Positions 9,517 through 21,093 of a DNA stretch of 63,952 nucleotides are shown piece after piece. The notes under the pieces were generated by a model. The model was not told where the DNA came from and did not search any database. It saw only the letters and a list, made by a program, of their open reading frames with translations. Numbering within the stretch: position 1 is the first letter of the stretch; every line of letters starts with the position of its first letter. Origin of the DNA: an uncultured Synechococcales cyanobacterium (GTDB taxonomy: Bacteria; Cyanobacteriota; Cyanobacteriia; CAIUCS01); assembly GCA_903897715.1 (NCBI GenBank), contig CAIUCS010000115.1, positions 1 through 63,952 of the forward strand. Direction: 5' to 3'. Made by a program: the position numbers and the translations under genes.

Positions 9517-9586
9517 AGCGGAGACTGTAGTTTCCGTTCACTCCTCACACCACACTCCGCCTAGATAAATTCTAGGCGGTTTCTTA
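9517..9586 (+). ncRNA. yfr1: Yfr1 small regulatory RNA
   Basis: The unpaired core ACTCCTCACAC at 9540-9550 is the ultraconserved Yfr1 motif. A 5' hairpin (CGGAGAC 9519-9525 with GTTTCCG 9530-9536) precedes it. A 3' terminator hairpin (CCGCCTAGA 9557-9565 with TCTAGGCGG 9571-9579, then TTTCTT) follows. Length is about 70 nt. Yfr1 is known near trxA in many cyanobacteria, and trxA is the next gene here. The single-stranded core base-pairs with mRNAs of outer-membrane porins in Prochlorococcus. The 3' hairpin also serves as the terminator behind typA. Confidence 0.93.
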
Positions 9587-19502: not shown

Positions 19503-19520
19503 TTCCCGCGATCGCGGGAA
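19503..19520. repeat. Perfect palindrome centred on a HIP1 site
   Basis: TTCCCGCGATCGCGGGAA is an 18-base perfect palindrome containing GCGATCGC. It lies just beyond the tnpB relic, where the hairpin end of the element would be expected, so it may be the old right end. Confidence 0.45.
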
Positions 19521-19532
19521 CGTGGATATTAT

Positions 19533-20000
19533 TCATAATGTTGATTTTGAACTATCCCTCACATTAAACGAGAGGGATTCTAATCTGAACAAAAGATTGA
19601 TTATTTGGGGAGCCCAGATTGGCTCCTTTTTTTGTGCTTCATTCCAGCCAAAGACGATTGTGCTAAGAAGAGACTCTAGGCAGTGATTAATGATAAAACG
19701 AGCCGCTTTGTTAACAGCATCTCGTATAAAGCGATTCCGTTGTTCAGTAATTCGAGTCAGTTCTGGACTCCAATAACCTTGAGGTTTTCCTGTTTTAAGT
19801 TCGGCAAATCGCTTGTTATACCACTGATTGACGGACTTAACGTTTCGTCCATCAATGATGAAGGATTTGCCGAGACTGGAAACACAAGTCAGCCAATTAT
19901 TGATTCCATGACCAATGCTGAGTGCTTGGTGACACTGATACAAGAGGTAATCTCTCACCTCATCTGCGACATTTAGCCTAGCTTGAATCGTTGCGTACAG
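19533..20000 (-). pseudogene. TnpB remnant with internal deletion
   Basis: The open frame includes ARLNVADEVRDYLLYQCHQA, an N-terminal TnpB segment. It runs directly into GINNWLTCVSSLGKSF, IDGRNVKSVNQWYNK, YWSPELTRITEQRNR and AVNKAARFIINHCLES, the central RuvC-like part of the cyanobacterial TnpB family. About 150 residues that normally separate these blocks are missing in frame. The C-terminal zinc finger and last catalytic region are also missing. The expected ATG position carries CTG at 19998-20000, with GGAGG about ten bases upstream on that strand. It is divergent from a tnpA relic. Confidence 0.8.
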
Positions 20001-20062
20001 TGACTACCTCCTTATTCTGTTATAGTTGATATTGTCAGCTTCAGTAATAAAGTATAGCGACA

Positions 20063-20262
20063 ATGGTAAGCTTGTCCCCAAAGGTTTACGAATACCGCAG
20101 GACAAATAATTCTGTCTCTTCTATCAACGAATCCGCCGCCGATATTGTGGGATGGGTTTAGCGTCGGGCTTCAAGGATATTGAGAGAAGAATTTCCTTCT
20201 CTGAAGAAACTTCCTTTTTTTGGAGTCCTAGTTATTTCGTGGCTAGGACGGGTCAGGTACGC
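20063..20262 (+). pseudogene. TnpA (IS200-type) remnant with internal deletion and stop
   Basis: Starting at ATG 20063 the frame reads KVYEYRRTNNSVSSIN, the N-terminus of an IS200-type Y1 transposase. It passes straight to a C-terminal part (ADIVGWV, stop TAG at 20159, then RRASRILREEFPSLKKLP and FWSPSYFVA). The middle portion, including the HUH motif, is missing. All pieces are in one frame, so a clean internal deletion occurred. Sequence after about 20262 no longer matches. Confidence 0.75.
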
Positions 20263-20289
20263 ATCGATCTTCTTGTTTTTACCCTCCCC

Positions 20290-21078
20290 TTAAAAGATGG
20301 AGGCTCTCAACTTCAACTTGGTAGGAATAATAATATAACCAGTATCCCTATCACCAAGAACCTGGTTTTTTTCATCTCCCCAATACCACCAATGGGCTCC
20401 CACATAGGCACAAATGAGGCTGTCGAGGAGGTCTTCCGAGGCTTTTAGCAGGGAAGCAGTGGCGGGGAGGGGTTGATCAAGGAATGGACTGGTTGGGGAT
20501 GGGATGGGGATATTATCTGCCGTTTGGGGGTTATATCTTAGGGGTGGCTCTAGTATTGGCAAGGTGGTTCGCAGATGATGGCGTAGTTTTTCCAATTCTT
20601 GGCACCGATCCTCTAGTTTTCCCTTTTTATATTTTATGATGCGGTCTAATTGAAACAGTTGCACGGTAGCAGGGTGGGGATAAACTTCAATTTGATACCG
20701 CCCTCCCTGTTGAGGGATGAGAGTGGGGGCATGGTTAAACCCCCTAGATTCTAAACTTAGCCCAAATTGAACGGTACGTTTAGCAAAGGGACGGTTTAAG
20801 TTGGCTGGGTAACAGCCTGCATCATATCGACCATAATATCGGTGGGTCAGGCGATCGCACAGCCGCATACCTGTGGAGTTGGGAATCAGAGTAGGAGCAT
20901 CCACCGCCACCAAAGCCGGCTCATTCCTTGGTGCCCATTGATCTATCCAAGCCAAAATATCACTGGTTTCCAATTTTCGTTGCCAGTCCAAAACCCATAA
21001 GTATTCCCCTTGCCATTGAAGACAGCATAATCCACTTGCTCCTGAACTCCACCCTAAATCAATCCCTAAAAATTTCAT
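20290..21078 (-). CDS. DUF429 family protein, RNase H-like fold
   Basis: 262 residues from the ATG at 21078 (MKFLGIDLGW); an ATG 15 bases upstream is the alternative. The GIDLGW N-terminus, VAVDAPT segment, RLCDRLTHR(Y)YGR, ECYPHPA-like EVYPHP and a late DLLDSLICAY...W helix are the DUF429 pattern, which is predicted to have an RNase H/actin-like fold and possible nuclease activity. The conserved acidic residues of the fold are present. No partner gene suggests a role. Confidence 0.8.
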   Translation of the reverse strand: MKFLGIDLGWSSGASGLCCLQWQGEYLWVLDWQRKLETSDILAWIDQWAPRNEPALVAVDAPTLIPNSTGMRLCDRLTHRYYGRYDAGCYPANLNRPFAKRTVQFGLSLESRGFNHAPTLIPQQGGRYQIEVYPHPATVQLFQLDRIIKYKKGKLEDRCQELEKLRHHLRTTLPILEPPLRYNPQTADNIPIPSPTSPFLDQPLPATASLLKASEDLLDSLICAYVGAHWWYWGDEKNQVLGDRDTGYIIIPTKLKLRASIF

Positions 21079-21093
21079 ATTTTTTGAATGCAA

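Follow-up and report, generated by a model that had tools for sequence, protein, structure and literature searches.

A 773-base relic of an IS200/IS605-type element lies at positions 19547-20319 of the window, which is the whole 63,952-nucleotide stretch analysed here and corresponds to contig C115 of a 2.86-Mb draft assembly in 207 contigs. The relatives recovered and a Yfr1 RNA in the window point to a cyanobacterial source. Read on the minus strand from the left end (LE) to the right end (RE), the locus consists of a CTACC target, an LE hairpin, divergent remnants of tnpA and tnpB, and an RE hairpin (Table 1). Here we show the anatomy of this relic, the losses in both of its genes, its ends, its target and its insertion point. 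It is very probable that a complete IS605-type element inserted at CTACC and subsequently decayed in place to an inert, end-bearing, single-copy relic, one among many in this genome. A sequence-only reading had recognised internal deletions in both genes of an IS200/IS605-type element, and Pfam matches together with alignment to full-length relatives bear this out; the extent it gave (19503-20262) is replaced by the longer interval above, which takes in both ends and is directly adjoined by CTACC.

Table 1. Features of the relic and related elements (window positions)
Feature	Position	Strand	Basis
Target CTACC, immediately 5' of LE	20320..20324	-	Common to 11 of 12 aligned sites in the genome
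LE, hairpin CCTCC-loop-GGAGG (~20283-20303), GAAGTTGAGAG before hairpin	20265..20319	-	Similarity to other copies; DNA folding
tnpA remnant, C-terminal part, ESAADIVGWV*RRASRILREEFPSLKKLPFFWSPSYFVARTGQVRIDLL	20129..20275	+	Y1_Tnp Pfam match and alignment
tnpA remnant, N-terminus, MVSLSPKVYEYRRTNNSVSSIN	20063..20128	+	Comparison with full-length TnpA of L033, L037, L039, L040 and L042
tnpB remnant, N-terminus, CTG at start position, then YATIQARLNVADEVRDYLLYQCHQ	19926..20000	-	Alignment with full-length TnpB
tnpB remnant, RuvC-I to central region, ALSIGHGINNWLT...FGWNEAQK	19629..19925	-	OrfB_IS605 Pfam match and alignment
tnpB remnant past the frameshift, GANLGSPNNQSFVQI, then deletion to RE	19582..19626	-	Alignment, e.g. 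L039 NGANLGHKTNQTFVQI
RE, AGAATCCCTC, hairpin GAGGG ATAG TTCAA	19547..19581	-	Same RE in C119, C121, C173 and C33; homologous RE in intact relatives
Non-coding mini-elements: L049 (C94), L046 (C193), L048 (C88), L053 (C114), L047 (C17), L095 (C56) and partial copies

Intact relatives and the probable ancestral element

The Pfam matches to OrfB_IS605 (E=1.3e-13) and to the C-terminal part of Y1_Tnp (E=2.5e-5) place the identity of the two remnants beyond chance. Across 84,980 species genomes, a scan returned five loci, in Microcystis and other cyanobacteria, that are 64-69% identical to the relic in the TnpB core, and a separate search of related genomes provided further relatives. In loci L033, L037, L039, L040 and L042, tnpB is full-length, at 429-463 codons from stop to stop, and divergent from a tnpA of ~135-138 codons. 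Since the intact relatives are arranged in this way, the divergent order is taken as ancestral, and the ancestor would have been a complete IS605-type element with both genes, roughly 1.9-2.0 kb long as in the Microcystis relatives.

The relic resembles these IS605-group relatives (cyanobacterial copies such as L033 and L037 in Microcystis) in gene order, in its TnpA Y1/HUH and TnpB families, and in having subterminal hairpins, a GAAT foot, an RE ending in TCAA and a fixed target 5' of LE without duplication. It differs from them in that both genes are gutted, in its RE terminus (TTCAA vs GTCAA in the relatives) and in that its CTACC target is deduced from copies within its own genome. No near-identical intact parent was found in the genome itself or in 59 relatives searched, and breakpoints were therefore set by protein alignment, with an uncertainty of several codons in tnpA.

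Deletions and point lesions in the two genes

The genes diverge as proposed from the interval 20000-20063, tnpA reading rightwards from an ATG at 20063 on the plus strand and tnpB leftwards from ~20000 on the minus strand. The initial 22 codons of tnpA run directly into ESAADIVGWV, which is followed by a TAG at 20159-20161; past this stop the remnant goes on as RRASRILREEFPSLKKLPFFWSPSYFVARTGQV to ~20275, where it meets LE, a second and terminal deletion having begun after IDLL. The 3' side of the first tnpA deletion is uncertain by several codons, as the join SSINESAAD was placed by eye and the automatic alignment differs. With the HUH segment and catalytic Tyr lost, this is a relic of the IS605 group and not an active member.

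Alignment and position counts in L037 (442 codons) indicate that tnpB kept ~24 N-terminal residues and lost ~168, the frame resuming at ALSIGHGINNWLT. The catalytic Asp of RuvC-I, found within GIDHG in relatives, is replaced by Gly at 19911-19913. Directly after FGWNEAQK, a one-base frameshift lies in an A7 run near 19629, beyond which 45 bases still encode a segment like that of the relatives. A terminator-like repeat on the plus strand at 19607-19628 was considered as a regulatory element and rejected, being frameshifted and decayed tnpB code (GANLGSPNNQ). The second tnpB deletion starts after FVQI and joins RE directly; the C-terminal third of TnpB (the last ~135 residues, including the NADCNGA motif) is lost.

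Alignment with the full-length relatives thus gives four deletions, one internal and one terminal in each gene, and confirms as real both internal joins noticed earlier (SSIN to ESAADIVGWV, and CHQ to the resumed tnpB frame). The claim that each gene had lost only its centre was right about the central loss but not about the gene ends, which a second deletion removed in each; alignment and end comparisons agree that the HUH and C-terminal TnpB motifs are gone and that the ends of the element are kept. The sequence-only reading had also named two observations that would count against it, namely random scattered decay and the lack of an intact divergent relative; deletions dominate despite some scattered decay, and such relatives exist.

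These joins might conceivably be artefacts of collapsed repeats, given a draft genome in which several IS fragments lie near contig ends. The region is, however, inside a 64-kb contig, its deletions are accompanied by point lesions (the RuvC-I Asp to Gly change, the tnpB frameshift and the tnpA stop), and no intact copy is present as the source of a chimera, so that we attach very little credence to this explanation. The same holds for the idea that the tnpB-derived open frame was retained and now encodes a small protein of new function, such as a repressor derived from TnpB. The in-frame tnpB junction does leave a 141-aa open frame, with a ribosome-binding site (AAGGAGGT, 20006-20013) upstream, but this frame lacks TnpB residues 25 to ~192, has a frameshifted end and carries CTG as the start-position codon 5 bases after that site. 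The adjoining tnpA is ruined as well, and the genome, the species-genome scan and the searches of relatives yielded no orthologue of this deleted form; such a function is highly improbable.

Ends, target site and insertion into a neighbouring gene

In the IS200/IS605 family, the foot of the hairpin carries a guide tetranucleotide and LE is flanked by a fixed target (PMC6006769). The relic has subterminal hairpins at both ends and a guide-like GAAT at the foot of the RE hairpin, as expected for the IS605 group. The RE, which terminates in TTCAA, is similar to that of intact relatives (GAATCCC ... GGGGAGATGTCAA), and in DNA folding its hairpin is more stable than shuffled sequences (z=-2.5 to -2.7). 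Other copies in the genome share the LE (GAAGTTGAGAGCCTCC...), at 90% over 52 bp in the case of C173; the LE hairpin is weak, being no more stable than shuffles. CTACC is identified as the target because it lies a few bases upstream of LE at 11 of the 12 LE sites in the genome despite differing further flanks.

The gene at 20290-21093 on the minus strand, which we take to be DUF429-like, ends ...GYIIIPT|KLKLRASIF*, and its last nine codons and stop (20290-20319) are the LE of the element; the stop codon of this host gene is now provided by a transposon end. Most of 29 homologues match the protein only to residue 257-260 of 267, and in most cases the protein stops soon beyond GYIV(I/V)P. The PT codons are formed in part by CTACC. 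Joining the flanks yields a predicted empty site with a DUF429-like C-terminus of normal length (...GYIIIPTNQHYE*; DNA ...CCTACC|AATCAACATT) and no target duplication. As judged from these comparisons, the insertion point lies clearly at the very end of the DUF429-like gene, the homologues matching up to the residue beside CTACC.

The insertion lies 3' of a short fixed target and made no duplication, in keeping with the IS605 group, and from the family we infer that single-strand transposition would have placed the element 3' of CTACC at this site. Through several deletions and point mutations in place, the element would then have lost its transposase and nuclease active sites while both terminal hairpins were spared; these deletions probably followed the insertion.

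Other copies and transposase supply in the genome

Copy comparison, which could have revealed multiplication of the deletion derivative, found the 773-bp form only once in the assembled genome, and not in the several near-identical copies expected of a PATE or MITE. Another element, on C173, has similar ends, but all that remains between them is ~24 bp of tnpA and the C-terminal part of tnpB (SFVDNDFLPTFGEKP...NSDCNGAANRIRKVATQLG). It thus retains LE and RE with a different interior, the complementary part having been removed by an independent deletion. Its tnpA/LE join has a putative short overlap of 6 bp, which may be microhomology.

The genome also contains a multi-copy, non-coding family of roughly 0.25-0.4 kb with similar ends, the same CTACC target and a conserved interior (CGACTGTCTCTCAGTTCTTTAGAAGGGTTCTCC...). 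An origin of these mini-elements from HEARO/IscB was rejected, as Rfam returned nothing up to E=2 and blastn gave no match to the IscB locus on C113. Descent of the interior from TnpA or TnpB was likewise rejected, there being no convincing similarity; the interior has no match in plasmids. A Cyano-1 RNA (RF01701; L049:1591-1664) adjoins the LE of the C94 mini-element on the opposite strand.

Only one of the 18 Y1_Tnp matches in the genome, on C132, is a complete gene, which by eye only resembles the REP-associated kind of Y1 transposase; the others are fragmentary or have broken frames. All seven matches to OrfB_IS605 are partial. The 207-contig draft assembly contains no intact TnpA of the relic's family. 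Within the limits of this draft, the family appears to have no active transposase left, and present trans-mobilisation of the relic is therefore unlikely. The earlier suggestion that a functional copy may still recognise the ends in trans is weakly supported, by ends that look intact and by the spread of a mini-family with similar ends; the assembly holds no intact TnpA of the relic's family. Separately, the IscB gene L091 (C113:450-1388) appears intact, with a 442-aa open frame scoring 475 bits against NF040563, unlike the TnpA and TnpB genes detected, which are otherwise broken or partial.

These findings also bear on the order of events. The 773-bp form could itself have been a mobile mini-element of PATE or MITE type, its core deleted first and the remainder then inserted with TnpA acting in trans, as its intact ends and target and the existence of the multi-copy CTACC family would allow. 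The single genomic copy, the surviving coding pieces with separate lesions that resemble stepwise decay, and the lack of an intact TnpA of the family in the assembly make this unlikely, and we favour decay in place of a complete element. Whether the mini-elements themselves are a cyanobacterial counterpart of halophile PATEs, mobilised in trans at CTACC by the now-dead transposase family of the relic, is a separate proposal, which we put forward tentatively and hold at slightly below an even chance.

Comparison with halophile elements

Haloquadratum walsbyi contains many internally deleted IS605 elements, including remnants with divergent genes, as well as PATEs consisting of ends only, and nearly all of its TnpA genes are broken (PMC3119063). 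The relic's genome likewise has end-bearing, internally deleted divergent tnpA/tnpB elements, multiplied end-only derivatives and mostly pseudogene TnpA. The relic represents such an element in a cyanobacterium, and the kind is already known. It keeps N-termini and middle parts, whereas the described Haloquadratum remnants (PMC3119063) kept C-terminal pieces; no 19-22-bp direct repeats were seen at its breakpoints as placed by protein alignment.

The relic is ordinary and matters little outside its own genome. It documents the death of an IS605-type element through several deletions that spared the hairpin ends, and defines the ends and target of a cyanobacterial family of this type, along with an insertion point. 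Elsewhere in the window, a Yfr1 small RNA (RF01116) lies at 9518-9581 on the plus strand.
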